A DNA stretch of 64,000 bases from an uncultured Alphaproteobacteria bacterium. Its GTDB lineage: Bacteria; Pseudomonadota; Alphaproteobacteria; Rhodobacterales; Rhodobacteraceae. The translations under genes were made by a program, and so were the position numbers. Below, piece after piece: positions 29,941-53,753 of this stretch (its first letter is position 1; each line of letters starts with the position of its first letter). The notes below the pieces were generated by a model, which did no database searches, was not told where the DNA came from, and saw only the letters and a list, made by a program, of their open reading frames with translations. The stretch spans positions 1 to 64,000 of the forward strand of contig CACBAO010000008.1 in NCBI GenBank assembly GCA_902537235.1, given 5' to 3'.

Positions 29941-31119
29941 ATGAAAAGTATCTTTGGGGGCTTTGTTCCAGTTCATAGTCTGGGTATAAGTCAGATCGTT
30001 GCCTATGGCGCGATGTTTTATTCTTTTGCGCAAATCAAAGTAGAGTTAGCTGAAAAACTAGGGATGTCCCTTGAGACGACTACCATGGTAGTCAGTCTGT
30101 CTTTATTTATAAATGTACTTATTTCCAGTTACGTTGGTTATTTAATTGATAGATCTGGAGGGTTGAAAGTTCTTTCTACTGGGCTCTTTATCGGATCAAT
30201 AGGATTTATCTCGCTGTATTTTACTAAGGACTTATTAGGATTTTTGTTTTCAATGCTGCTGATAGGAATAAGTTTTAGTTCAGCGTCTTACAACGTGGCT
30301 TTCAGCACGGCAATTCAATTAGATGACCAAAACTCACGAAAGAACATTACCATAATCACATTTTATGGTGCTATCGCAAGTTCGGTGTGTTGGTTGACTA
30401 TCGGTTTTTTACGTAACTATTTTGGGCTGGATTCAATATTTTTGCTTCTGTCATTATCTTTATTTCTAATGGCGGTATATTTTTTTATAAATTTAAACTT
30501 TAAAAAGGAAGAGAAGAAAAATGAGGCTAAAAAACCAATTATAGATCTTCTTCCTTTAAGATTGTCTAAGAAAGAAAAAGTCATAATTACTGTTTTGATG
30601 ATTTTTGGGTTTACAGAATACTTAATTTTTTCAACGACTGCGCTGTCATTAATTCAGTTTTTTAACTCAAATTTTAATGATCCTTCAATTGCAATAGTAT
30701 TAGCGAGTGTATATGGACCGTTTCAGCTAGTAGGTCGCTTTTTAGAGATGAAGTTTGCCACATTTCTGGATGCTAGACTTACAGGCCTAGTAGCTAGCGC
30801 AATTGTACCGTTATCATTAATCATAGTACTTACACCCAACTTCTATGTATGTATTATCGCTATGGCTCTTTTTGGCATGGGTCATGGATTGCTGACTGTA
30901 ACAGGTGGATATGTCCCAAATTTATTTTTTGAACCACAAGTTATTGGGAGAGTTAAAGGATACATATGGGCGCCTACGGCGCTGGGGATGGCATGTGCGC
31001 CTTTTTTTTCAGGAATATTTCACGAAAATATGAATAATTTAATTATTTTTTTGTTAGCTTTGTCTGTATGCCCTTTTTTTTCATTGCTCTTTATCTTTAA
31101 AATGAAAACAAGATTTTAA
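29941..31119 (+). CDS. Major facilitator superfamily transporter
   Basis: 392 residues with about twelve hydrophobic helices. An N-terminal half opens VPVHSLGISQIVAYGAMFYSF, a Dx-rich loop GYLIDRSGGLKVL matches the MFS motif A position, and a charged central loop (FKKEEKKNEAKK) separates the two halves. The opening resembles the oxalate/formate- or monocarboxylate-type MFS members found in alphaproteobacteria, but the substrate is unknown. It lies 18 bases after the GFA gene and 2 before the NUDIX gene. Confidence 0.87.
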   Translation: MKSIFGGFVPVHSLGISQIVAYGAMFYSFAQIKVELAEKLGMSLETTTMVVSLSLFINVLISSYVGYLIDRSGGLKVLSTGLFIGSIGFISLYFTKDLLGFLFSMLLIGISFSSASYNVAFSTAIQLDDQNSRKNITIITFYGAIASSVCWLTIGFLRNYFGLDSIFLLLSLSLFLMAVYFFINLNFKKEEKKNEAKKPIIDLLPLRLSKKEKVIITVLMIFGFTEYLIFSTTALSLIQFFNSNFNDPSIAIVLASVYGPFQLVGRFLEMKFATFLDARLTGLVASAIVPLSLIIVLTPNFYVCIIAMALFGMGHGLLTVTGGYVPNLFFEPQVIGRVKGYIWAPTALGMACAPFFSGIFHENMNNLIIFLLALSVCPFFSLLFIFKMKTRF

Positions 31120-31121
31120 AG

Positions 31122-31511
31122 ATGTCTATACATAAGGCGAGTATTGATGTAGTTGCGGCAGTGATTAAGAAAAATGATTTATTTCTTATTGCAAACAGAA
31201 GTTTTGAAGCCAACTCCCAGGGTATATGGGAGTTTCCAGGGGGAAAGGTTGAAGAAAGCGAGACTTTCACATCTGCTCTGATAAGGGAAATCAAAGAAGA
31301 ACTTTCTCTGAATATCAAAGTTGGTAATATGATAGCGACTATCGACCTGGATAAGGCAGATAAAAATATTTACGTCCATTATTATTATGCAATTATAGTA
31401 TCTGGTCAAATAAGTCTAAATGTTCACTCAGAGTTTAAATGGGTGCCACATCCTCAATTAAAAAACTTTACATATATTGATGGTGATAGACATATTTTAA
31501 ATTATCTTTGA
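31122..31511 (+). CDS. mutT: NUDIX hydrolase, MutT-like (8-oxo-dGTP diphosphatase)
   Basis: 129 residues, the usual MutT size. The Nudix box begins at G41 (GGKVEES) with E47 and continues REIKEEL at 55-61, all catalytic residues present. Preceding NSQGIWEFPGG is typical of MutT. It would sanitise 8-oxo-dGTP. It begins 2 bases after the MFS gene stop. No thiamine synthase domain is fused, as occurs in some relatives. Confidence 0.85.
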   Translation: MSIHKASIDVVAAVIKKNDLFLIANRSFEANSQGIWEFPGGKVEESETFTSALIREIKEELSLNIKVGNMIATIDLDKADKNIYVHYYYAIIVSGQISLNVHSEFKWVPHPQLKNFTYIDGDRHILNYL

Positions 31512-34213: not shown

Positions 34214-35311
34214 TTAATTACAGCTTACAGTTTCCAGCAATGCTTCCTTTACCGCGGAATGAGTGATCTGTCCCTTTGAGACATTCAATCCCATCGCTAA
34301 ATTTTGATCTTGCTCTAAAGCCTCTAGTCCCAAACTTGCTATTTTTGAAATGTAGTTAGCTGTAACATTATTGAGAGCATAAGATGCTGTCTTAGGCACA
34401 GAGCCTGGCATATTTGCTACACAATAATGTAAAACACCATCTTCATAGTAGATCGGATTTTGGTGTGTTGTTGGTTTTGATGTTTCAAAGCATCCACCCT
34501 GATCAATAGCAACATCAACTAAAACAGAATTATTTTTCATTTTGGATAGAAATGACTTTTCAATTAGTTTTGGAGCGCTTGCACCAGGTATCAATACTGC
34601 ACCTATCACTAGATCTGCGTCAACAAGTTGGTTTTTAAGTTCCAGAGGTTCCGAGTAAAGAACCTTAGCTGAATTACCGAAGATATCATTGAGGTATCTT
34701 AATCTTTCAATAGATTTATCGAAGATTGTAACGTCGGCCCCCACTCCAATTGCCATTTGAGCTGCATTTGTTCCAACCATACCGCCCCCTAAAATTATGA
34801 CCCTCGCAGGCTTTACACCTGGAACACCAGATATTAAAGAGCCAGGTCCTCCACAGGTCTTTTTTAAGTGATAAGCACCTTCAAAAACTGCTAATCTTCC
34901 AGCAATTTCACTCATAGGTGCTAAAAGGGGTAATGCGCCTTTGTCGTCAGTAATTGTTTCATATGCAATTGCGTGGCATTTTGCATCAATTAGGCCTTTT
35001 GCTTGTTTTGGATCTGCGGCTAAATGAAGGTAAGTGAAAAGAATTTGTTCTTCTTTGAGCATTTTCCATTCAGATTCTTGAGGTTCCTTTACTTTTACGA
35101 TCATATTGCTGTCTTTAAAAATCTCTTCAGGTCCATCAACAACTTTTACTCCTACTTTTACATAATCGTCATCAGTAGCACCAATACCTTCGCCGCTGTT
35201 TTTTTGAAGAAGTACAGTATGATTTTCTTCGATCAATCGTGAAGCAGTTGAGGGTGTGATACCAACCCTATATTCACTTGGTTTAATTTCCTTAGGCACC
35301 CCAATTATCAT
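34214..35311 (-). CDS. ald: Alanine dehydrogenase
   Basis: 365 residues, full length. The pyruvate and catalytic residues known for the family are in place: R15 (EYRVGI), K75 (IVKVKEP) and H96 (YLHLAA). GGGMVGTNAAQMA near 174-186 is the NAD Rossmann loop and VDVAIDQGGC near 267-276 carries the conserved Asp. It interconverts L-alanine and pyruvate with release of ammonia. In taurine dissimilation Ald regenerates pyruvate for taurine:pyruvate aminotransferase, which fits xsc-pta nearby. A perfect 16-base inverted repeat lies 54 bases upstream of the start. Confidence 0.95.
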   Translation of the reverse strand: MIIGVPKEIKPSEYRVGITPSTASRLIEENHTVLLQKNSGEGIGATDDDYVKVGVKVVDGPEEIFKDSNMIVKVKEPQESEWKMLKEEQILFTYLHLAADPKQAKGLIDAKCHAIAYETITDDKGALPLLAPMSEIAGRLAVFEGAYHLKKTCGGPGSLISGVPGVKPARVIILGGGMVGTNAAQMAIGVGADVTIFDKSIERLRYLNDIFGNSAKVLYSEPLELKNQLVDADLVIGAVLIPGASAPKLIEKSFLSKMKNNSVLVDVAIDQGGCFETSKPTTHQNPIYYEDGVLHYCVANMPGSVPKTASYALNNVTANYISKIASLGLEALEQDQNLAMGLNVSKGQITHSAVKEALLETVSCN

Positions 35312-35364
35312 TAAAATCCCCCTTTAAAAATTATAATCAATAATATCACAATCTAGAGTGTTAC

Positions 35365-35399
35365 CCAAAGTATTAAAAATATAATTTTTAATACTTTGG
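35365..35399. promoter_or_regulatory. Perfect 16-base inverted repeat between ald and the M16 protease gene
   Basis: CCAAAGTATTAAAAAT at 35365-35380 is followed after ATA by its exact reverse complement ATTTTTAATACTTTGG at 35384-35399. It is centred in the 133-base gap between two divergent genes, 53 bases from ald and 45 from the protease gene. In that position a terminator for either gene is excluded, so an operator for a dimeric regulator is likely. A hairpin in one leader transcript is the alternative. Confidence 0.6.
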
Positions 35400-35444
35400 T
35401 GTTATTTAGCTTGTATTCGAATTCAAAGATATTATCTTCCAATC

Positions 35445-38300
35445 ATGTTCGAAATACAAAATACCAAAGAAATCCCATTGCTCAGGGTAGATGCTCAAGT
35501 GTTTAAACATTCAAGATTTGGATGCACCCATCTACATTTAGGTTGTGACAGTTCAGAAAAAGCTTTTTCGGTTGCTTTCAGGACTATTCCTAAAGATCAC
35601 AGTGGCATAGCGCATATTTTGGAGCATACGGTCTTATGTGGATCAGAAAAATTTCCAGTGAGAGATCCTTTTTTTATGATGACGAGACGCTCATTAAGCA
35701 CTTTTATGAATGCGATGACCTATCCAGATATAACTGCTTACCCGTTTGCGACGCTGAATGATAAGGATTTTAGAAATCTTCTGTCGGTATATTTAGACGC
35801 TGCTTTTTTTCCAAATATAGATGAACTCGACTTCATGCAGGAAGGCCATAGGTTTGAATTAATTAAAGATGGCGATAAAGAAAAGCTTGCCCTTAAAGGT
35901 GTTGTATATAACGAGATGAAAGGTGCTATGAGTTCTGTTCCACGACAATTATGGCATGGGGTTTCGAAGTCACTATATCCCACAACTACTTATGGGTTTA
36001 ATTCTGGTGGAGATCCTGATTTCATTCCTGATCTGACTTACGCAGATCTAAAAAACTTTCACAAAAAGTATTATCATCCTTCAAATGCTGTGTTTTTTTC
36101 TTATGGAAATATTGATGCAAATGAACTGCAGCAAGAAATTGAAGGCTCAGTGTTAAAAAAGTTTACTCCAAAACTTGATAATCTTAGGGTAAATCCAGAG
36201 CCTGCCTTCGAAGAAGAACAATATAGTCATTCATATTACAACCCACTTCCTGACGACGAAAACAATCATCATGTAGTGGTCGCCTGGCTGCTAGACTCTA
36301 CTAAAGATCCTGTTGATCATTTAGAGGCATGTTTGTTAGAAAACATTTTGCTTGATAATTCTTCTTCACCCCTGAGAAAAGCTCTTGAGAGCACTGATTT
36401 AGGAAAAGCGCCATCTCCCGTAACCTTTATGGAAACGGAACAGAAACAAATGGCTTTCGTAGCCGGTTTAGAGGGAGTTGAAAAGGGAAAAGAGAAAGAT
36501 GTTGAGGAGTTAGTCTTAAGTGTCTTCAGGGATCTTGTTCTTAATGGTGTTGAAAAAGATTTGATAGAGGCTTCCTTACATCAAATCGAAATATCACAAA
36601 GGGAGATATCAGGTGGCATGCCATATGGTTTACAACTTTTGCTCGGGACAATGCCTTCAATTTTGCATGACTCTGATCCATTAGAGGTTCTTGATCTTGA
36701 AGGAGCTCTTTCAAAATTGAAGAAAAGATTGGAAGAACCTAATCATTTAGAGAGGCTTGTTGAAAAATTCTTTATTAAAAATAAACACAGGGTTACCTTT
36801 CAATTGATTCCAAATATTGATTACGATAAAAATAAGATGGAGAAGCTTGATAAGCTACTCTCTGAAAAAAATAGTTCCTTATCAAGTTCACAGAAAGATA
36901 ATATCCGTGATCTTACGAAAAAATTAGAAACAAGGCAGAACTCAAAAGACGATCCTAATTTGCTTCCCTGTGTAACGGTTAATGATATTGAGAAAGAGAG
37001 ATTTTATACCACTGGCTGTAAACAAGAAGATGGCGATAAGATCAAATATTTTTACCATGCTGGAACGAATGGGATAGATTACACTACAAAAGTGTTCTCC
37101 TTAGAGTCAGCAAATTTGGATGATCTTAAATATAGTAATTTTTTCTCAGATGTTGTGACAAGTGTAGGCGTAGGAGAGAAAGATTATGAGAAAATTCAAA
37201 AAGAACAGTCACTAAGTACTGGTGGAATAGGATTAAGTTTCAATGTTCTTCCGGATAGTTCAGGTAATAAATTCCTCCTTAGTGCTGGGTTGCATGGTAG
37301 TGCTCTTAAAAAAAACTTTTCAAAGCTTGAGAGTTTAATGAACGATACTATTTATGGATTTCGACTAGATGAAATAAAAAGATTGGAAGAACTTACACAA
37401 TTCGAAATTGCTGGAAAAGAAAAATCAATTACTCAGAGTGGCCACATGCTAGCAATGAATGGTGCGTCGGCTCAAATCTCAAAGTTTGGTGCTGTGTCAG
37501 AATTTGTCGGCGGCGTGTCGTCTATACATAATCTCAAAACGCTAAGAGACTCAAATGGAAAAATAAAAATGGAAGTGTTACTCGAGTCATTTTCAAAGTT
37601 AAACAGTTTCATTAATCCTGCTTCTAAAATAGAGGTGGTTATAAGTGCAAGTAATCAAAATTTTGATAAGGAAACTACAACCAAAACCGGGTTAGAAACC
37701 TTAGACGCTCTAAATGGAATAGACTTGCAATCTGAGGAAATTGCGTGGATTACTGGATCGGATGTAAATTTTTGTGCGCAGGCATTTCCCACAGTCGGTT
37801 ATGATCATCCTGATGCACCGATACTTACTGTCTTAGGAGCTGTTTTACGAAATGGATTTCTTCACTCTGCAATAAGGGAAAAGGGAGGAGCTTACGGTTC
37901 AGGTGCTCAGCAGGATTCAGCATCTCGTTCTTTTAGATTTTTTTCATATCGAGACCCAAATTGCAAAGAGACTTTTAACGCATTCAATGAATCTATTGAA
38001 TGGTCATTAAAATCTATAACCTCAGAAAAGTTAGAAGAAGGAATATTGGGTGTTATTTCTTCGATTGACAAACCTGGTTCACCCGCTGGTGAGGCAAGAG
38101 CGGATTTTAATCAAAATATAAGAGGAATAGACCAATCCAAAAGAAAAATTTTCAGGAGCCGTGTTATTAATTGTTCAGTTGAAAGGCTTGTAGAAGTTTC
38201 AAACAAATATTTGACTTGTGAACCTAAGAAATCCGTGATTTCCGGAAAGCATTTTGAAAAAGAGATTAAAGATCTTGGCTTATCTATTCATTATGTTTAG
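35445..38300 (+). CDS. M16 metallopeptidase, PreP/M16C type
   Basis: 951 residues, the usual size of the presequence-protease class. The inverted zinc motif is HILEH at 57-61 (DHSGIAHILEHTVLCGSEKFP), and the downstream Glu ligand is in GVVYNEMKGAM near 150-160. A second pseudo-symmetric half contains the RGGAYGSG-like closing segment (EKGGAYGSGAQQ). There is no signal peptide, so it is cytoplasmic; it would degrade short unstructured peptides. It is divergent from ald and separated from xsc-pta by convergence, so it has no obvious link to sulfur metabolism. Confidence 0.92.
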   Translation: MFEIQNTKEIPLLRVDAQVFKHSRFGCTHLHLGCDSSEKAFSVAFRTIPKDHSGIAHILEHTVLCGSEKFPVRDPFFMMTRRSLSTFMNAMTYPDITAYPFATLNDKDFRNLLSVYLDAAFFPNIDELDFMQEGHRFELIKDGDKEKLALKGVVYNEMKGAMSSVPRQLWHGVSKSLYPTTTYGFNSGGDPDFIPDLTYADLKNFHKKYYHPSNAVFFSYGNIDANELQQEIEGSVLKKFTPKLDNLRVNPEPAFEEEQYSHSYYNPLPDDENNHHVVVAWLLDSTKDPVDHLEACLLENILLDNSSSPLRKALESTDLGKAPSPVTFMETEQKQMAFVAGLEGVEKGKEKDVEELVLSVFRDLVLNGVEKDLIEASLHQIEISQREISGGMPYGLQLLLGTMPSILHDSDPLEVLDLEGALSKLKKRLEEPNHLERLVEKFFIKNKHRVTFQLIPNIDYDKNKMEKLDKLLSEKNSSLSSSQKDNIRDLTKKLETRQNSKDDPNLLPCVTVNDIEKERFYTTGCKQEDGDKIKYFYHAGTNGIDYTTKVFSLESANLDDLKYSNFFSDVVTSVGVGEKDYEKIQKEQSLSTGGIGLSFNVLPDSSGNKFLLSAGLHGSALKKNFSKLESLMNDTIYGFRLDEIKRLEELTQFEIAGKEKSITQSGHMLAMNGASAQISKFGAVSEFVGGVSSIHNLKTLRDSNGKIKMEVLLESFSKLNSFINPASKIEVVISASNQNFDKETTTKTGLETLDALNGIDLQSEEIAWITGSDVNFCAQAFPTVGYDHPDAPILTVLGAVLRNGFLHSAIREKGGAYGSGAQQDSASRSFRFFSYRDPNCKETFNAFNESIEWSLKSITSEKLEEGILGVISSIDKPGSPAGEARADFNQNIRGIDQSKRKIFRSRVINCSVERLVEVSNKYLTCEPKKSVISGKHFEKEIKDLGLSIHYV

Positions 38301-38305
38301 CCAAG

Positions 38306-39250
38306 TTAGGCCGTGTCATCACTCAAAATACTGGCTAGTGCTATAGACGCAAGCCTTGCTTCCGGTGGATCTGCTCGACTTGTAAGTAGAACAGGTACTT
38401 TTGCTCCTAGAACGATGCCTGCCGCGCACCCTCCAGCAAAGTATACAAGTGATTTGTAAAGAGTATTACCGGATACAATTTCTGGTACTACTATCCCATT
38501 CGATTGGCCCGCAACAGGGTCATTCCCCAATCCTTTTTTAATTGCTGCATCTCTACTAATTATAAGGTCAAGAGCTAGAGGGCCAGAAAATAATGCGTCT
38601 TTAATATTTTCTGTGGCCCATTCCTTCAAGTTATGAGCAATTATAGTTGACTCCATATTTTCCATAACAATCTCACTAGCAGATAAAAATGCAATTTTTG
38701 GGGTCTTTATACCCAGTGTTTTCAAACTTTTAACCATTGTTTCAATAACTGTTTTTAGAGTTTTCTCACTAGGTTTGATGTTTACTGCTGCATCTGAGAC
38801 CATAATTCCTGTATTCATATCGTCATTAGTTATATAAAATTGATGAACAATCTTGTGTTTTGTTCTCAGATTATTTTTTTTCGCAATTACAGATCTCATG
38901 AAAGTATCTGAATGCAAATCCCCCTTCATAAGGATATCTGCTTCACCGTTCCCACATAAAAGGGCACTGATATCCCCAGCTTTTTCTTCTTCAGTTTCAT
39001 TTATTATTCTGTAACAAGATATATCCCAGCTTAAACCTCTAGCCTGTTTTTCAATTTGATCTTTAGGGCCTACAAAGATTGGTTCAATCAAATTTAAATC
39101 AAAAGCTTGTTTTGCCCCTGAAATAGCGGACTTGCTATGAGAAAATGCGATGACTACTTTAGCTACTTTTGCCCTATTTTTTGCCATTTTTAGCAAGCTT
39201 TTTGGAGCAAATACTTTTGATTGATCTAATATGAAAGAGCTTGGGCTCAA
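38306..39250 (-). CDS. pta: Phosphate acetyltransferase (Pta, PTA/PTB family)
   Basis: 314 residues from a TTG at 39250, preceded by AGGA at about 9 bases. The PTA/PTB domain shows LMKGDLHSDTFMR, NTGIMVSDAAVNIKPS and the C-terminal VAGQSNGIVVPEIVSGNTLYKSL then GAKVPVLLTSRAD. It converts acetyl phosphate and CoA to acetyl-CoA. The gene follows xsc by 17 bases, and Xsc makes acetyl phosphate, so this is the Pta of sulfonate degradation. It is the short form without the N-terminal DRTGG region. Confidence 0.9.
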   Translation of the reverse strand: MSPSSFILDQSKVFAPKSLLKMAKNRAKVAKVVIAFSHSKSAISGAKQAFDLNLIEPIFVGPKDQIEKQARGLSWDISCYRIINETEEEKAGDISALLCGNGEADILMKGDLHSDTFMRSVIAKKNNLRTKHKIVHQFYITNDDMNTGIMVSDAAVNIKPSEKTLKTVIETMVKSLKTLGIKTPKIAFLSASEIVMENMESTIIAHNLKEWATENIKDALFSGPLALDLIISRDAAIKKGLGNDPVAGQSNGIVVPEIVSGNTLYKSLVYFAGGCAAGIVLGAKVPVLLTSRADPPEARLASIALASILSDDTA

Positions 39251-39267
39251 TTTTCTAATCCTATTAA

Positions 39268-41043
39268 CTAGCCAACGGCTTTCATATCGCCCTTTGATAT
39301 TCCAGCAACAGGAACAGGGGCTTTCATAGCATCCCTTCTAAAAGGTTCTCCAAGTTCTTGATTTAGCATCACTTCAATGAATGTAGTTTTATTGTTTTCC
39401 ATTTGTTGGTTAATGGCTTCTTTTAAAATAGATGTTAACTCTTCCATAGAGTTAGCAGTTGTTCCAATGAAGCCACAAGCATCTGCCATTTTTGCGTAAG
39501 ATACCTTGGTGTCTAATTCCGTGCCTACAAAATTGTCTTTAAACCAAAGCGTAGTGTTTCTTTTTTCAGCTCCCCATTGATAATTTCTAAAGATAATCAT
39601 AGTTATAGCAGGCCATTCAGACCTACCAATAGAAGTCATTTCATTTACCGAAATTCCGAATGCGCCATCTCCCGCAAATCCAACTACAGGAACACTTGGC
39701 ACTCCAATTTTTGCGCCTACGATTGAAGGCAACCCATATCCGCACGGCCCAAATAAACCCGGGGCTAGATATTTTCTTCCTTTTTCAAAAGTAGGATATG
39801 CATTACCTATTGCACAATTATTCCCGATGTCTGATGAGATAATAGCATCTTTAGGCAATGCTGATTGAATAGCTCTCCAAGCCATTCGAGGCGACATTTT
39901 TTCGGGTTCTCTCTTCCTTGCTCTTTCATTCCAAGTTGTTCCTGGGTCGTCCTCTTCGTGATCTAAAGAACTTAGTTCCTGAGCCCACTTTGACTTAGTT
40001 TGCGAAATATAATCAGTACGTTCTTTAACTTTATCATCTATCGCTATTTCAGGCGTAAAAGTGAGAATTTTCTTAATTACCTTCTTAGCATCACCAACAA
40101 TACCCAAAGACACTTTTTTTGTTAATCCTATACGATCACTGTTTAAGTCTATTTGGATTATTTTTGCCTTCTCTGGCCAATAGTCGATGCCGTAACCAGG
40201 TAAAGTTGAAAAAGGGTTAAGACGCGTTCCAACGGCCAAAACAACATCAGCTTTCTTTATTATTTCCATAGCAGCCTTCGATCCATTATATCCAAGAGGA
40301 CCACAATGAAACGGATGTGAGCCTGGAAAAGCATCATTATGTTGGTAACCGGTACATACCGGTGCGTGTAACCTTTCTGCTAATTGTATAGTGTCATTTA
40401 TTGCATCGCTTAATACAACTCCAGCTCCATTAAGGATTACAGGAAAATTTGCATTTATAAGCAGGTTAGTAGCTGTTTTTATAGTGTCCTCGCCCCCATC
40501 AGGTAATTCAAATTCAATTAACTCCGGAATATCTATATCAACTTCCTTGTTCCAAAAATCCCTAGGAATATTTATTTGAGCAGGAGCAGATGCTTTTTTT
40601 GCTCTAGATATAACTCTATTCAACGTCTCAGCTATTCTTTGAGGATCTCTTACTTCTTCTTGATATGCCACCATGTCTTTGAATAGCGCCATTTGCTCAA
40701 CTTCTTGAAAACCTCCTTGACCTATTGTTTTATTAGCAGCCTGAGGAGTTACCAAAAGAAGAGGGGTGTGGTTCCAATAAGCTGTCTTTACCGGGGTAAC
40801 AAAGTTTGTGATACCTGGTCCGTTTTGCGCTACCATCATAGACATTTCTCCGGTTGCTCTTGTGTAACCATCAGCCATCATTCCAGCGTTACCTTCATGA
40901 GCAGCATCCCAGAATTGAATACCAGCTGAAGGAAATAAATCGGAAATTGGCATCATAGCAGAGCCAATAATTCCAAATGCATGAGCGATTCCATGTTTCT
41001 GTAATACTTTTACAAAGGCTTCTTCAGTGGTCATCTTAGTCAT
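39268..41043 (-). CDS. xsc: Sulfoacetaldehyde acetyltransferase
   Basis: 591 residues, full length, a thiamine-diphosphate enzyme. MTTEEAFVKVLQKHGIAHAFGIIGSAMMPISDLFP, EGNAGMMADGYTR (with the cofactor-activating Glu region) and the C-terminal ThDP site GFAGDGAFGISVNEM are present. Xsc-specific text such as YQHNDAFPGSHP and RREPEKMSPRMAWR-like segments (390-400) separates it from acetolactate synthases. The reaction is sulfoacetaldehyde plus phosphate to acetyl phosphate plus sulfite. It is paired with pta, and SoeABC encoded 3.6 kb away can oxidise the sulfite. Taurine or isethionate are likely parent substrates. Confidence 0.95.
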   Translation of the reverse strand: MTKMTTEEAFVKVLQKHGIAHAFGIIGSAMMPISDLFPSAGIQFWDAAHEGNAGMMADGYTRATGEMSMMVAQNGPGITNFVTPVKTAYWNHTPLLLVTPQAANKTIGQGGFQEVEQMALFKDMVAYQEEVRDPQRIAETLNRVISRAKKASAPAQINIPRDFWNKEVDIDIPELIEFELPDGGEDTIKTATNLLINANFPVILNGAGVVLSDAINDTIQLAERLHAPVCTGYQHNDAFPGSHPFHCGPLGYNGSKAAMEIIKKADVVLAVGTRLNPFSTLPGYGIDYWPEKAKIIQIDLNSDRIGLTKKVSLGIVGDAKKVIKKILTFTPEIAIDDKVKERTDYISQTKSKWAQELSSLDHEEDDPGTTWNERARKREPEKMSPRMAWRAIQSALPKDAIISSDIGNNCAIGNAYPTFEKGRKYLAPGLFGPCGYGLPSIVGAKIGVPSVPVVGFAGDGAFGISVNEMTSIGRSEWPAITMIIFRNYQWGAEKRNTTLWFKDNFVGTELDTKVSYAKMADACGFIGTTANSMEELTSILKEAINQQMENNKTTFIEVMLNQELGEPFRRDAMKAPVPVAGISKGDMKAVG

Positions 41044-43015: not shown

Positions 43016-44314
43016 TTAGTTTAGAAACCTTTCATCGAATGGATAAGAGGTAAGATTTTCAAATCCACTGTCTGTTACAAGTAATTGATCTTCAAGCTTA
43101 ATTGAAAATTCGCCGTTTTCACGGCTGATTAATGCCTCTACACATAATGTCATTCCTGGCTGAAGGACATAATCAAATGCACCCTCTTCATAGTCCTCTG
43201 GGTATGTTATCAGAGGAAACTCGTCGCACAGCCCAACACCGTGAAACCTGCAGCTGTATTGTTGTTTTTTATACATATCATCAAGTTGATGTCCTTTAAA
43301 TGTTAAATCTTTAAAGGGGACACCAGGAGCAACAAGTTCAGCATTCTTTTGGATATGTTCCAATGCTATTTGATAATCTTGTTTCATTTCCATTGTTGGC
43401 TCTTGGTCTCCGATCCACCATGTTCTAGAAATATCAGTACACATCGAGTAACAACCAACTAGATCAGTATCAAAAGCCACTATTTCATTTTTCTGAAGCA
43501 TTCTAGAGCCACATTCCTGGAACCAGGGGTTTGTTTTGGTGCCGGACGAGAGTAAGCGAGTTTCAATCCACTCTCCACCTCTTTTAATGTTTTCTGAATG
43601 AAGAATTGACCAGATATCATTTTCAGTCATTCCTGGCTTTGTTTCTTTCTCCATAACATGTATTGAGGTTTCGCACGCCGAAATAGAGCATCTCATAGCT
43701 TTTATCTCTTCAGTAGATTTTATCGATCGCGCATGCTCCATTATTTTTTCTCCATTTTCGATTTTAAAGTCTCTACTTTCTAGACTTTTAAACCCATCGA
43801 GCATTATTTTATCTATCGCCAATTTCTTTTTATTTTTTCTTTTTTTTTTGAAGGCTTGACTAACTTGATGAGAAAAGTTTTCAGCGGCAGACTTCACATT
43901 ATCTCCTTTTGCAAAATAAAACATAGACGCACCAGTTCTAACTTCATCAATGTATAGATAATTGGATTCTATATAATGCGTGCTTTCTTGGTAATCCCAA
44001 AGAATGCAGTGGCCGTCATCAAAAACTAAGCAGGATCTAAAAGGATTATGTGTATTCCACAAAAGCATATTAGATGTGCCAGTTGCGTACCTAATATTTA
44101 ACGGGTCAAAAAGCAAAATGGCATCGACTTTGTTCTTTTTTAATTGCGCTATGACTTGTTCCTTTCTATATGAATTAATTATAGATACGTCTGGCAATTG
44201 TAAGCCTTTATTATTCCATTCTTTTAGAGCTAGTTCTGTTGGTTCTGAAAAAACACTTATTTTTTCTGGAGCTTTGCCAGGATTTATTTTTTTTTGAAAA
44301 GAAGGTGCCTGCAT
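43016..44314 (-). CDS. dddP: DMSP lyase DddP (M24 fold, di-iron)
   Basis: 432 residues. The M24 peptidase fold is modified as in DddP. The six metal ligands of the Ruegeria DddP (D295, D297, D307, H371, E406, E421) correspond one-for-one, at a constant offset of 13, to D282, D284, D294, H358, E393 and E408 here. Catalytic D377 corresponds to D364 and Y366 to Y353. Family text such as FDPLNIRYATGTSNM, ENIKRGGEWIETRLLSSG and NPWFQECG is conserved. The enzyme cleaves dimethylsulfoniopropionate to dimethylsulfide and acrylate in the cytoplasm. It is divergent from the biotinyl carrier and soeABC. The offset relies on remembered residue numbers for the reference enzyme. Confidence 0.92.
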   Translation of the reverse strand: MQAPSFQKKINPGKAPEKISVFSEPTELALKEWNNKGLQLPDVSIINSYRKEQVIAQLKKNKVDAILLFDPLNIRYATGTSNMLLWNTHNPFRSCLVFDDGHCILWDYQESTHYIESNYLYIDEVRTGASMFYFAKGDNVKSAAENFSHQVSQAFKKKRKNKKKLAIDKIMLDGFKSLESRDFKIENGEKIMEHARSIKSTEEIKAMRCSISACETSIHVMEKETKPGMTENDIWSILHSENIKRGGEWIETRLLSSGTKTNPWFQECGSRMLQKNEIVAFDTDLVGCYSMCTDISRTWWIGDQEPTMEMKQDYQIALEHIQKNAELVAPGVPFKDLTFKGHQLDDMYKKQQYSCRFHGVGLCDEFPLITYPEDYEEGAFDYVLQPGMTLCVEALISRENGEFSIKLEDQLLVTDSGFENLTSYPFDERFLN

Positions 44315-44656: not shown

Positions 44657-47455
44657 ATGGATAAAGAAGTTGACGCTACTGAGAGCCTTGGGAAGGTTTC
44701 TAAAACGACTTGTTATATGTGTGCATGTCGCTGCGGCATTGATGTGCATATAAAAGACAATGAAGTTGTTCATATAGAAGGTAATAGAGATCACCCAGTA
44801 AATAGGGGTGTTTTATGTGCAAAAGGCGCTTCTGGTATTTTTCAGCATAAAGCAGCCTCTAGACTAAAAAAGCCACTACGTAGAGTTGGTAAGCGTGGAG
44901 AGGGGAAGTTTAAAGAAATATCTTGGGACGAGGCTCTTAAGATTGCGGTTGAGTGGTTAATTCCCATTCGTAAAAAATCACCAGAAAAACTTGTCTTTTT
45001 TACTGGTCGAGATCAATCTCAGTCATTTACTGGCTGGTGGGCGCAAAAGTTTGGTACCCCCAACTACGCGGCCCATGGCGGCTTTTGCTCTGTAAATATG
45101 GCTGCTGCAGGTATTTATACTATGGGAGGTTCATTTTGGGAATTTGGTTCTCCTGATTGGGACAAAACGGAGCTGATGCTTCTTTTCGGTGTGGCAGAGG
45201 ATCATGACAGTAATCCTATTAAAAGAGGATTAGGAAAGTTAAAAAATAGAGGTGCAAAAGTTATCGCAATTAATCCAGTTAGGACTGGCTATAATTCAGT
45301 TGCAGATCAATGGGTAGGCATACGGCCAGGAACCGACGGTCTCTTGGTTCTTTCGCTTGTGCATACACTGCTTAAAAAGAAAAAAATTGACTTAGATTAT
45401 TTGCAAAGTTTTACAAATTCGCCATTCCTTGTGAGTGTTACATCAACTAATAAGAGCAAGGGGTTATTTTTAAGAGATAAAGACGGCTCTCCTCTTATAA
45501 TTGATCATATTTCTGGTAATTTGAAGAAATTTTCAGATAAGGGTGTGAAGCCGTCTTTGACTAAGTCTTATTCAAATAAAGATGGTTCCTTTAAGACTGT
45601 ATTTACTTTGTTAACTGAAAAATATTTGGACAATTCATATTCTCCAAAATTGGTTGCACCGCAGTGCGGATTGAAGGAAGAACAAATATTAAGCTTGGCC
45701 AATGATATAGCTACAACCGCGTTTAACAAGTCAATATACATCGATCAAAGTTGGGTAGACTTTAGGGGAGAAAAAAGGTCGGGTTTCACCGGCAGGCCGG
45801 TTAGTTTCCATGCGATGAGAGGTATTTCAGCGCACTCTAATGGATTTCAAACTTGCCGAGCTATACACTTGCTTCAAATTTTAATTGGTAGCGTTGATGT
45901 TCCGGGTGGATTTCGGTATAAGCCACCTTATCCAAAGCCGTTTGATGCGCACCCTAGGCCACATTTTAAATTTAGTCCTGATAGTGAATTAGATGGACCT
46001 CATCTTGGATATATAGGTGGACCCGAAGATTTAGCTTATACTGAGGATGGTAAACCAGCAAGAATTGATAAAGGTTTTACATGGGAAAACCCTATGTCTT
46101 CACATGGATTAATGCATACTGTAATAGCTAACTGTCACAGTGGAGATCCATATAAAATAGATACATTGTTTCTTTACATGGCCAATATGGCATGGAATTC
46201 CTCTATGAATACTGAGGAAACAATTAAGAAGTTAACAGCACGAGACGCTGACACAGGCGAGTATAGAATTCCTAGGATAATATACTCTGATAGCTATTAC
46301 TCGGAGACTGTTGCCTATGCTGATCTCATTTTGCCGGATACAACCTATTTAGAAAGATATGATTGCATATCTTTATTGGATCGGCCTATAGGTGAGCCCG
46401 ATCAAGTTAGTGATGCAATACGCTGGCCAGTTGTTAAGCCAAATAGAGATGTGAGAAGCTTTCAAGATGTTTTGCTACAACTTGGCGTTATGCTGGAGTT
46501 ACCAGGAATGGTAGACAGCGACAAGCGGCCATTATATGAAGATTACGCTGATTACATGCAGAAGCATCAGAGACGCCCAGGCATTGGGCCCTTAGCAGGA
46601 TTTAGAGGTGAGACTAATACAGATTGTGGCAGAGGAGACGTTAGCTTAAATCAAATTGAGAATTATATAAAGAATGGAGGATTTTGGAGTGAAAAAATCC
46701 CCGAGGAAGCCCAATATTATAAACCATGGAATAAAGCGTATCAAAAGTGGGCTGTTGAAATGGGTTTCTACGATAAAGAAGAGCCTTTTGTCTTTCAAAT
46801 CTATTTAGAACCACTAGCAAAGTTGCAAAATTACCACCAATTGCCAGATAATTTGAAACCTAAGAAGCATTTGTATAAAAGAATTGAAGAAAAAATGGAT
46901 CCGTTACCAATTTGGTGGTCAAATCATGATCCAAATAAAGTCAAAAAATATCCAATACATGCAATTACACAGAGACCTGCAGCAATGTATCATAGTTGGG
47001 GCAGTCAGAATGTTTGGTTGAGACAAATTCATGGTTCCAATAAATTATTTGTGTCTGAAGGTATTTGGAAAGAAAAGAATTTCAAAGATGGAGACTGGGC
47101 AAGATTGACGTCAGAAAATTCATCAATAGTTGTTCCGGTTGCGCTTATGAAGAGCCAAAACGAAAATACGGTATGGACATGGAATGCAATCGGCAAAAGA
47201 AAAGGATCTTGGGCTTTAGATGAAAATGTGGAGGAGGCTAATGAAGGTTTTATAATAAATCACCTTATTTCTGATCTCCTGCCCGAAAATGATAGCGGCT
47301 ACAGATATAGTAATTCTGATCCTATTACTGGACAAGCTGCATGGTATGACCTATTGGTTAATATTGAAAAAGTCGACAACCCCACCAAGGTATCTCTCCC
47401 ACAGTTTCCAGTATTGGGCTCTCCTGTAAATGTTGGGGTAGATAAAAAGAAATGA
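44657..47455 (+). CDS. soeA: Molybdopterin oxidoreductase, sulfite dehydrogenase SoeA type
   Basis: 932 residues of the DMSO reductase family. The N-terminal [4Fe-4S] set is C19, C22, C26 (TTCYMCACRCG) and C54 (GVLCAKG). The bis-MGD core continues with FFTGRDQSQSFTGWWAQKFGTPNYAAHGGFCSVNMA, FGVAEDHDSNP and INPVRTGYNSVADQWVG. The C-terminal cofactor lobe has QRPAAMYHSWGSQN. No Tat signal is present, so it acts in the cytoplasm. The size, the text and the soeB-soeC order match the SoeABC sulfite:quinone oxidoreductase, oxidising sulfite to sulfate. A polysulfide or tetrathionate enzyme is the weaker alternative. Confidence 0.88.
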   Translation: MDKEVDATESLGKVSKTTCYMCACRCGIDVHIKDNEVVHIEGNRDHPVNRGVLCAKGASGIFQHKAASRLKKPLRRVGKRGEGKFKEISWDEALKIAVEWLIPIRKKSPEKLVFFTGRDQSQSFTGWWAQKFGTPNYAAHGGFCSVNMAAAGIYTMGGSFWEFGSPDWDKTELMLLFGVAEDHDSNPIKRGLGKLKNRGAKVIAINPVRTGYNSVADQWVGIRPGTDGLLVLSLVHTLLKKKKIDLDYLQSFTNSPFLVSVTSTNKSKGLFLRDKDGSPLIIDHISGNLKKFSDKGVKPSLTKSYSNKDGSFKTVFTLLTEKYLDNSYSPKLVAPQCGLKEEQILSLANDIATTAFNKSIYIDQSWVDFRGEKRSGFTGRPVSFHAMRGISAHSNGFQTCRAIHLLQILIGSVDVPGGFRYKPPYPKPFDAHPRPHFKFSPDSELDGPHLGYIGGPEDLAYTEDGKPARIDKGFTWENPMSSHGLMHTVIANCHSGDPYKIDTLFLYMANMAWNSSMNTEETIKKLTARDADTGEYRIPRIIYSDSYYSETVAYADLILPDTTYLERYDCISLLDRPIGEPDQVSDAIRWPVVKPNRDVRSFQDVLLQLGVMLELPGMVDSDKRPLYEDYADYMQKHQRRPGIGPLAGFRGETNTDCGRGDVSLNQIENYIKNGGFWSEKIPEEAQYYKPWNKAYQKWAVEMGFYDKEEPFVFQIYLEPLAKLQNYHQLPDNLKPKKHLYKRIEEKMDPLPIWWSNHDPNKVKKYPIHAITQRPAAMYHSWGSQNVWLRQIHGSNKLFVSEGIWKEKNFKDGDWARLTSENSSIVVPVALMKSQNENTVWTWNAIGKRKGSWALDENVEEANEGFIINHLISDLLPENDSGYRYSNSDPITGQAAWYDLLVNIEKVDNPTKVSLPQFPVLGSPVNVGVDKKK

Positions 47456-47462
47456 GCAAGAA

Positions 47463-48206
47463 TTGACAAAATTACCTAAATGCGAAGATAAAAAACTAGG
47501 GCTTTTAATTGATCTTGACACTTGTGTCGGATGTCACGGATGTGTAGTGAGTTGTAAGGAATGGAATTCATCGGGAAGTGAAAAACAGTTAAGTGACATA
47601 AACTCCCATCAGAAGGATCCAGTTGGAACTTTTTTAAATCGAGTTCATTCATATGAGAGAGAAAACAGCTGTACGAATGAAACTGAGACCTTTTATTTTC
47701 CAAGATCTTGCCTTCATTGTGAAGATGCACCTTGTGTGACTGTTTGCCCGACAGGAGCAAGTTATAAGAGAGAAGAAGATGGGATAGTTCTTGTTAATGA
47801 AGATGATTGTATGGGCTGTGGGCTTTGTGCTTGGGCATGTCCCTATGGCGCTCGAGAGTTAGATTTAGTAAGCGGTGTGATGAAAAAGTGTACTTTGTGT
47901 ATTGATAGAATTTATAGTGAAGAGCTTCCACCAGAGGACAGAGTGCCTGTGTGTGTAAAGAGTTGTCCCACTGGCGCAAGAGCATTTGGCGATTTCAATG
48001 ACCCTAACTCAGATGTTTCAAAAAAGGTCAAAGAGAGAGGTGGGATTGATCTTATGCCTGAAATGCAAACAAAACCAGTTAATAAATATCTACTTCCTAG
48101 AATAAAGTCTAAGGACTCCGTTGGGTCTGTTGGGTCAGTTGGTGAGGAGGAAACAGATGCTACAGGACTACTTGGTTGGGTAGATAGAGCTCTTAGTAAG
48201 TTCTGA
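47463..48206 (+). CDS. soeB: Iron-sulfur subunit SoeB (four [4Fe-4S] ferredoxin type)
   Basis: 247 residues from a TTG at 47463. Cys clusters come in the DmsB order: CVGCHGCVVSC (21-31), CLHCEDAPCVTVCP, CMGCGLCAWACPYGA and the KKCTLC plus CVKSCPTGA set, together enough for four clusters. It carries electrons from SoeA to SoeC. Near the C-terminus is a short (SVG)3 repeat encoded by a 9-base tandem repeat. It follows soeA by 7 bases and its TGA overlaps the soeC ATG by one base. Confidence 0.92.
   Translation: MTKLPKCEDKKLGLLIDLDTCVGCHGCVVSCKEWNSSGSEKQLSDINSHQKDPVGTFLNRVHSYERENSCTNETETFYFPRSCLHCEDAPCVTVCPTGASYKREEDGIVLVNEDDCMGCGLCAWACPYGARELDLVSGVMKKCTLCIDRIYSEELPPEDRVPVCVKSCPTGARAFGDFNDPNSDVSKKVKERGGIDLMPEMQTKPVNKYLLPRIKSKDSVGSVGSVGEEETDATGLLGWVDRALSKF
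48120..48143 (+). repeat. Short 9-base tandem repeat in soeB
   Basis: GTTGGGTCT at 48120-48128, GTTGGGTCA at 48129-48137 and the partial copy GTTGGT at 48138-48143 encode three Val-Gly units, giving SVGSVGSVG in the linker before the C-terminal helix. This is a likely slippage site with in-frame length change. Confidence 0.6.
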
Positions 48207-49078
48207 TGCATCCTGCTCCATCAATAATTCTTTTTACTGTTCTTTCTGGTTTTGGTTTTGGGCTGATTTCAATTGTCGGGCTGCTGCAATTTTTGAGTCA
48301 GATCAGCGCAGTTAATATTATTATTTTTTCTTTAATAGGGCTTATTTTTTCAACCGTTGGATTAATCTCCTCTTTTTTTCATCTTGCAAACAAAAAAAAT
48401 GCAATCAAATCCATGTCTCAATGGCAAACTAGCTGGCTCAGTCGAGAGGCAATTTCCTCGATCTTCTGCCTATCAATTGTTGTAGGAAACATTGGTTGGG
48501 TTTTTATTCAAAATCGATATATCAATGAGGTTGGCATAGTGTTATTTCTTTTATCCTTATTTACTATTTTTACTACTTCCATGATTTATGCACAGTTAAA
48601 AACCGTTCCATCTTGGAATAATATATTAACGCCTGCTCTTTTTATTTTTGCAGCTTTGGCTGGTGGCTCAATTCTATTAATGGATTACGCTAGCTTAGTT
48701 TTGCTACTAATTTTTGGGGTTCTTCAAGTCTGGTTTTGGTATATTGCTGACCAAAGTTTTATGTATAAAGAAACAACTATTGGTACTGCTCTGGGATTTA
48801 GTAAAAATGAAAATATCAGAGCTTTTGATTTTGCTCATACTAATAGAAACTATTTGCTTAATGAGATGGTTTACAAAGTTGCTAGGAAACATGCAATAAA
48901 AATAAGATATATCTCTTTCTTTGCGGCATTTGTTTTTCCAATGTCATTAACTTTAATCTTTCCAGGTAATTTTAGCGTTAGCGTTTTTATGCTTGTCTTT
49001 CACCTTGTAGGAATTTATTTTTCAAGATGGTTATTTTTTGCTGAGGCTAAACATGCGGTTAGTTTTTATTATAATTAA
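48206..49078 (+). CDS. soeC: Membrane anchor subunit SoeC (DmsC family)
   Basis: 290 residues with about eight hydrophobic helices. The opening MHPAPSIILFTVLSGFGFGLISI and the segment SFFHLANKKNAIKSMSQWQTSWLSREAISS are typical of the SoeC/DmsC anchor. The His in the FHLAN helix and the Arg in WLSRE lie near the quinone site. It fixes SoeAB to the cytoplasmic face of the inner membrane and passes electrons to the quinone pool. It is the last gene of the soeABC unit. Confidence 0.9.
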   Translation: MHPAPSIILFTVLSGFGFGLISIVGLLQFLSQISAVNIIIFSLIGLIFSTVGLISSFFHLANKKNAIKSMSQWQTSWLSREAISSIFCLSIVVGNIGWVFIQNRYINEVGIVLFLLSLFTIFTTSMIYAQLKTVPSWNNILTPALFIFAALAGGSILLMDYASLVLLLIFGVLQVWFWYIADQSFMYKETTIGTALGFSKNENIRAFDFAHTNRNYLLNEMVYKVARKHAIKIRYISFFAAFVFPMSLTLIFPGNFSVSVFMLVFHLVGIYFSRWLFFAEAKHAVSFYYN

Positions 49079-52880: not shown

Positions 52881-53753
52881 ATGACAGATAAGAGCTTTGG
52901 TATTCTTTTAGCTGTTACCGCAGGAATACTTTGGTCCACTATAGGATTAAGTATCAAGAGCATTGAGGAGGCCAATGCGTTTGAAATATTATTTTATCGT
53001 TCAATTTTCATTTCAATTTTTATTGGGTTTTTGCTCCATTTTTTTTTCAGGTTTAACTTTTTTCTTCTTTTAAGAAACTGGATGTCTTATTTGTCTGGTG
53101 GTACTGCGCTATTTTTTGCATATATAGGAGGAATTTACGCTTTATTAACAACATCAGCAGCAAATGCTCTCCTATTATTTGCTTGCGCCCCAATATTTAC
53201 AGCTATTTTGTCACCAATATTTCTAAAAGAAACAATATCAATCAAAACATTACTGTCCATTGCCATTGCTTTTACGGGCGTCTTTATAATGATTTGGGGT
53301 GATTTTGGTGGCGGTGATTGGAAAGGAAACTTATCCGCTATTATTTCAGCTATGGGCTTTTCTTTTTTTACTATCAATCTAAGACTAAACAAACATATGC
53401 AAATGTTACCATCTGTTTTTGCTTCAGGGATCATCGCATCCTCTGTTGCTTTCTTAATTATATTGTTTTCAAATTATAGTTTTCAGCTTATCAGCAAAGA
53501 CTTCTTCATTATTTTCATTTTAGGTGTCTTCCAGGTAGGTGGTGGCCTTGTTTTATATACTCTAGGCTCAAAATTTGTGCCTGCAACGCAACTAACCATA
53601 CTAATGCTTGGAGAGGTATTTTTGGGTCCGGTTTGGGTATGGATTTTTATTGGGGAAGAGGTTTTACTCAATACTATTCTAGGAGGATCTTTAATTTGCT
53701 TTGCTGTGGTGTATAATGCATTGTATTCTAACACCGACAAATTAATAAAATAA
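52881..53753 (+). CDS. EamA/DMT family transporter
   Basis: 290 residues with ten hydrophobic helices in two repeated EamA domains: GILLAVTAGILWSTIGLSIKS opens the first, and WKGNLSAIISAMGFSFFTIN the second. SPIFLKETIS and GEVFLGPVWVWIFIGEEVL are the paired signatures near the ends of the halves. It is probably a metabolite exporter, substrate unknown. It precedes the CaiC-like ligase by 35 bases on the same strand. Confidence 0.88.
   Translation: MTDKSFGILLAVTAGILWSTIGLSIKSIEEANAFEILFYRSIFISIFIGFLLHFFFRFNFFLLLRNWMSYLSGGTALFFAYIGGIYALLTTSAANALLLFACAPIFTAILSPIFLKETISIKTLLSIAIAFTGVFIMIWGDFGGGDWKGNLSAIISAMGFSFFTINLRLNKHMQMLPSVFASGIIASSVAFLIILFSNYSFQLISKDFFIIFILGVFQVGGGLVLYTLGSKFVPATQLTILMLGEVFLGPVWVWIFIGEEVLLNTILGGSLICFAVVYNALYSNTDKLIK

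Follow-up and report, generated by a model that had tools for sequence, protein, structure and literature searches.

Two described regulatory systems are among the closest points of comparison for the control of the alanine dehydrogenase gene (ald) considered here. The consensus box of Lrp in E. coli is YAGHAWATTWTDCTR, as given in the excerpts of PMC5554404 on which we draw. TauR, of the MocR/GntR type, is described in excerpts of PMC5320631 as a regulator of taurine genes, including xsc and pta, in alphaproteobacteria, and its sites there are the direct repeats CTGGACYTAA. The same excerpts link Ald with taurine use by the Tpa route and report bisC, hybA and dmsC in the TauR regulons of some Rhodobacterales.

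The window, a stretch of 64,000 nucleotides (64 kb) with a G+C content of 36.7%, is part of contig 8 of an uncultured, apparently marine member of the Rhodobacteraceae, whose assembly (G000) comprises 1.92 Mb in 59 contigs and is 80% complete. It contains the inverted repeat CCAAAGTATTAAAAAT-ATA-ATTTTTAATACTTTGG (Table 1). A preliminary description of this DNA had reported exact arms of 16 bases with a three-base spacer, placed between divergent ald and M16 protease genes, and reading of the sequence bears out both points. The region is divergent: ald, on the minus strand, has its start at 35311, and the protease gene, preP, on the plus strand at 35445.

The perfect dyad is far beyond chance. 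Only one other perfect inverted repeat with arms of at least 11 bases and a spacer of 12 or fewer occurs in the 64 kb, at 31093-31123, and its arms are 11 bases long. Simulations with a first-order Markov model gave no repeat with arms of at least 11 and a spacer of at most three in 20 windows, and a single simulated sequence of 1.92 Mb, with spacers up to 10 allowed, held one repeat with arms of at least 13 and none of at least 14. A genome search for the half site CCAAAGTATT, which the preliminary description had proposed, proved uninformative: there were 14 matches, of which the palindrome itself supplies two, and the reversed control gave 10. Elsewhere in the window the half site occurs at 52925-52934; this match falls within an ORF and was rejected.

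Table 1. Features of the ald/preP intergenic region and its flanking genes, in window coordinates.
Feature	Coordinates	Strand	Details
Perfect inverted repeat, proposed operator	35365..35399		16-base arms (35365-35380, 35384-35399), spacer ATA; from the sequence
ald-proximal arm ('right' arm, ald sense strand)	35365..35380 (17 columns with 35364)		1/17 columns variable, ten species
preP-proximal arm	35384..35399		5/17 columns variable, ten species; plus a one-base gap in the host genome
ald, alanine dehydrogenase, likely target	34214..35311	-	365 aa; TIGR00518 465 bits against a cut-off of 392
preP, M16C/PreP-like metalloprotease gene, possible second target	35445..38300	+	951 aa
Possible ald -35, TTGGGT	35363..35368	-	Overlaps palindrome end; from sequence and alignment
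Possible ald -10, TATTAT	35340..35345	-	17 bases from possible -35; from sequence and alignment
Possible preP -35, TTAGCT	35406..35411	+	18 bases from possible -10; from sequence and alignment
Possible preP -10, TATTAT	35430..35435	+	Kept in two distant genus members too; from sequence and alignment

The palindrome sits between two possible -35 elements, one for each gene. The TTGG of the possible ald -35 and the TA...T of the possible -10 are kept in all 12 aligned species, and at the position of the possible preP promoter L023 reads TTGACT...TATTAT. A scan with consensus promoter elements reported neither the proposed ald pair nor the proposed preP pair; it gave a single weak pair on the ald strand (35405-35378, minus, 9/12) that reaches into the palindrome, one found against 1.9 expected. 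Both are named as possible promoters from conservation and position only. We note that the preP start codon lies nine bases past its possible -10 (35430-35447), with no visible ribosome-binding site; the transcript is possibly leaderless.

Further genes of the neighbourhood deserve mention. Near ald, at 38306-41043, are a phosphate acetyl/butyryltransferase gene and xsc, for sulfoacetaldehyde acetyltransferase, which passes its NCBIfam cut-off; the combination suggests taurine breakdown. A protein encoded at 43016-44314 reaches 611 bits for the DMSP lyase DddP, where the NCBIfam cut-off is 600, and genes for a molybdopterin oxidoreductase, a 4Fe-4S protein and a DmsC-like anchor stand in a row at 44657-49078.

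Conservation was assessed with the Ald protein as query against 61 genomes. A true ald was present in 16 of the 22 members of the genus, six having none in their assemblies, and with G014 and G018 set aside as cut off before the promoter this gave 14 genomes, the host included, with a readable upstream region. Twelve species were aligned; the upstream regions of the other two, G009 and G021, were read by eye and subjected to a dyad test. The preliminary description had held that a lack of conservation in close relatives would speak against an operator. The palindrome is present in 10 of the 14 genomes, host included, among which ald is 97-100% identical. The common form is mostly close to CCCAAAGTATTAAAAATTATATTTTTAATACTTTGGG, and the dyad is perfect in six of the ten, with 16-base arms in L009 and 17-base arms in L010, L011, L012, L014 and L018, so that five of the other nine species with the site carry a perfect dyad of 37 bases (CCC...GGG). 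Arm changes number two each in L013 and L015 and one each in L016 and L017. Two further species, G001 (ald 92%) and G011 (ald 88%), retain a degenerate form whose ald-proximal arm contains AACAACTTGG. Pairing at the homologous position is 12/18 and 11/18, respectively, values that other centres in AT-rich gaps also reach; by pairing count these dyads are indistinguishable from chance. The dyad is absent from the upstream regions of G009 and G021 (ald 77%), both on reading and by the dyad test. The ald/preP arrangement itself is kept in G009, as judged from ORFs, and in G021, from the upstream sequence.

Among the ten sites, nine of the 37 palindrome columns vary. By comparison, the ald leader is variable at 26 of 55 columns, and the four-fold degenerate sites of ald at 65 of 155. 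When 37 four-fold sites of ald are drawn at random, nine or fewer are variable with P of about 0.01. All three spacer columns vary. The 37 bases on the preP side of the palindrome, where the preP promoter would be expected, are more conserved than the palindrome itself, with two variable columns of 37. The preP-proximal arm has decayed in four of the ten, by substitution in L013, L015 and L017 and by the gap in L009, which indicates that strict symmetry is not needed everywhere. The comparison points to a real, though moderate, constraint on the palindrome, which falls more heavily on the ald-proximal arm.

Is the element peculiar to this locus? A sequence model (R1) was built from the ten sites, which therefore match it by construction, and was run against the 22 genus genomes with 150 candidates scored in each. 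Among the matches listed, E values of 2.6e-7 or below occur only at ald in these ten; the next match is at ald in G001 (E 2.4e-6) and every other match listed has E above 0.016. A dispersed repeat or the end of a mobile element was considered and multiple copies were looked for; with strong matches only at ald among those listed, the palindrome is a local site. In one genome per genus of the family, 149 with the host included, searched under stricter filters with 38 candidates scored in each genome shown, only the host matched at E 0.001, so that all known copies are within the genus. Literature searches gave no paper on the palindrome site among the matches listed.

The inverted repeat is thus beyond chance, lies in what appears to be a promoter region and varies less than neutral four-fold sites. 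We consider it likely, on these comparisons, that the palindrome is the operator of a homodimeric (or dimer-of-dimers) transcription factor controlling ald and possibly the divergent preP. The preliminary description had proposed the operator of a dimeric regulator of ald, for instance an Lrp- or GntR-like protein. An element of this kind is supported by the conservation of the site, its place at possible promoters and its poor qualities as a terminator, but the two named regulators fit poorly. A dimeric regulator would bind the palindrome as double-stranded DNA; ald would be controlled and, judging by position, preP might be too. Repression of ald is the simplest sign, given the overlap of one arm with the possible ald -35: the bound protein would hold the gene off and be released by an inducer, which may be alanine or a related metabolite. 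Alternatively, the protein could activate ald from just upstream of the -35.

Might the dyad act without any specific DNA-binding regulator? One candidate is a hairpin formed by the RNA of the ald or preP 5′ leader, serving as an attenuator, stability element or terminator. In its favour are a strong predicted fold on the plus strand (-17.9 kcal/mol, z -5.2) and one terminator-like plus-strand match with a loose T tail, against 0.2 expected. However, G-C accounts for just three of 16 pairs, a U tract is absent on the ald side, and no plus-strand ORF of at least 90 aa ends in the 3.8 kb upstream, so there is nothing to terminate. Both flanking genes begin here and none ends; an intrinsic terminator was rejected, in agreement with the earlier remark that one makes no sense at this position. 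The weak scan pair at 35405-35378 would start ald transcription inside the palindrome, but the favoured possible promoters leave the dyad untranscribed. In an ald-sense transcript G-U pairing would survive three changes confined to one arm, two of them in L015 and one in L016, yet changes on both sides occur in none of the 17 pairs, a comparison of limited power as 12 of the 17 never vary. This combination makes an RNA role unlikely, the window has no Rfam match at gathering scores, and overall we regard the hairpin as quite improbable. An A+T-rich promoter element, UP-like or of bent DNA, could be shared by the divergent promoters, its symmetry arising from that shared use or from quasi-palindrome mutation with no specific regulator involved. 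The centre of the common form, AAAAATTATATTTTT, is built entirely of A and T and is closely followed by the possible ald -35, and the A and T tracts are kept in the more distant G001 and G011. An UP element needs no G+C-containing outer arms, however, and the conserved CCCAAAG...CTTTGGG is left unexplained; we judge this reading to be unlikely.

If the palindrome is an operator, which protein might bind it? The regulator domain search covered the Lrp/AsnC, GntR, TetR, XRE (HTH_3) and LysR families. The five families gave a single LysR-type protein in the 80%-complete host genome (1.9 Mb) and no Lrp/AsnC, GntR, TetR or HTH_3 domain. Lrp is a natural guess because an Lrp gene stands divergent beside ald in three related genomes (G034 and G024 by ORFs, G030 by coordinates; G034 checked with Pfam). 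A single gene represents the Lrp/AsnC family in the genus; it was found in 13 of the 22 incomplete genomes, and in seven of the 10 that bear the site, a number to be expected when assemblies that share a gene are incomplete. That this Lrp binds the palindrome and controls ald, in the role that position suggests for the ald-linked Lrp of related genera, is nevertheless very unlikely. In the eight loci read of the 13 it adjoins a gene for a PLP enzyme of Cys/Met metabolism (Pfam on one); in three near-complete relatives it is closest to other Lrp genes (39-41%) rather than the ald-linked ones (32-33%); and it is present in G009 and G021, both lacking the palindrome. The ald region fits the E. 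coli consensus at just 11-12 of 15 positions in all 12 species, with shuffle means of 11.4-11.8. The intergenic region of lrp itself matches at 15/15 in five of eight loci and 14/15 in three, at the same place in seven; the shuffles keep single-base composition only, and for two of the 14/15 matches they reach the score in 3 and 5 of 200. The 15/15 matches lie between lrp and the divergent PLP enzyme gene (L068, L069, L071, L072 and L073), and the box there is probably an Lrp site. The ald palindrome was sought in the aligned lrp intergenic region and none was visible by eye. An Lrp-like regulator of ald thus loses ground, the Lrp box being in the gene's own region, not that of ald. A GntR-like regulator fares no better, as GntR domains were found in two of the 22 genus genomes, one of which, G003, carries the palindrome. 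TauR came into consideration because xsc and a pta gene are near ald; it was rejected, since the TauR sites of the excerpted description are direct repeats and GntR domains were not found in 20 of the 22 incomplete genus genomes.

The one LysR-type protein found in the host, of 295 residues, is conserved, with orthologues 94.6-100% identical in nine of the 22 genus genomes, seven of them among the 10 palindrome-bearing genomes. The four readable genomes without an intact site yielded none (in G011, one of four LysR matches was compared), and from completeness of 90, 69, 76 and 58% the probability of four chance absences is about 0.003. The half-site core AAAGTATT can be read off by eye upstream of lysR in six of nine cases. 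Against this, the co-occurrence is confounded by shared ancestry, and common descent explains the pattern equally well as a real link. The gene was not found in palindrome-bearing G016, G007 and G015 (the last 88% complete), and occurs in G004 and G010, where ald is not assembled. The lysR promoter shows no full dyad, and none of the strong R1 matches listed falls there. Sites of LysR-type proteins are usually T-N11-A boxes near the lysR gene. That the palindrome is the operator of this protein seems rather improbable, and the co-occurrence (7/10) is a weak lead to the regulator. Among the R1 matches listed, with 150 candidates scored per genome, no second genomic site points to a regulator, and a literature search on regulators in streamlined roseobacters gave no paper.

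We return to the palindrome as the operator of a dimeric regulator, which is probably neither a GntR protein nor the single Lrp of the genus. Tentatively, and with more doubt than confidence, we suggest that control of ald has been rewired: the divergent Lrp gene would have been lost and preP have taken its place, a later sub-clade then gaining a long operator for a regulator of neither the Lrp nor the GntR type, whose principal or sole strong target would be ald (and preP).

Small-genome ocean bacteria are thought to keep few regulators. With the five searched families nearly empty as well, an operator conserved in single copy would offer a rare way into the control that remains and, if other regulator families prove as sparse, naming the protein becomes a small experiment. 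Since ald ties the use of alanine, and possibly of taurine, to pyruvate and ammonium, the site could show when breakdown of amino acids or sulfonates switches on.

The comparison with described systems can now be drawn together. With the TauR system, as far as the excerpts describe it, the locus shares the placing of ald near xsc and a phosphate acetyltransferase gene, and the bisC, hybA and dmsC of some Rhodobacterales regulons resemble the window genes at 44657-49078; the TauR sites are direct repeats, unlike the inverted repeat here, and the host genome yielded no GntR-domain protein. The Lrp box, in the excerpted form, resembles the ald palindrome as an A+T-rich dyad with an odd centre, but the best fit in the ald region is at chance level. 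In the ald/Lrp divergons of other Rhodobacteraceae (G034, G024 and G030) ald is likewise read away from a divergent promoter region, with an Lrp/AsnC gene as its neighbour; here a PreP-type protease gene is divergent instead, the genus Lrp is non-orthologous and the site is unlike an Lrp box. As a feature the palindrome belongs to a known kind. Such length and perfection are unusual where the searched regulator families are nearly absent, and so is the apparent replacement of the Lrp arrangement of its relatives.
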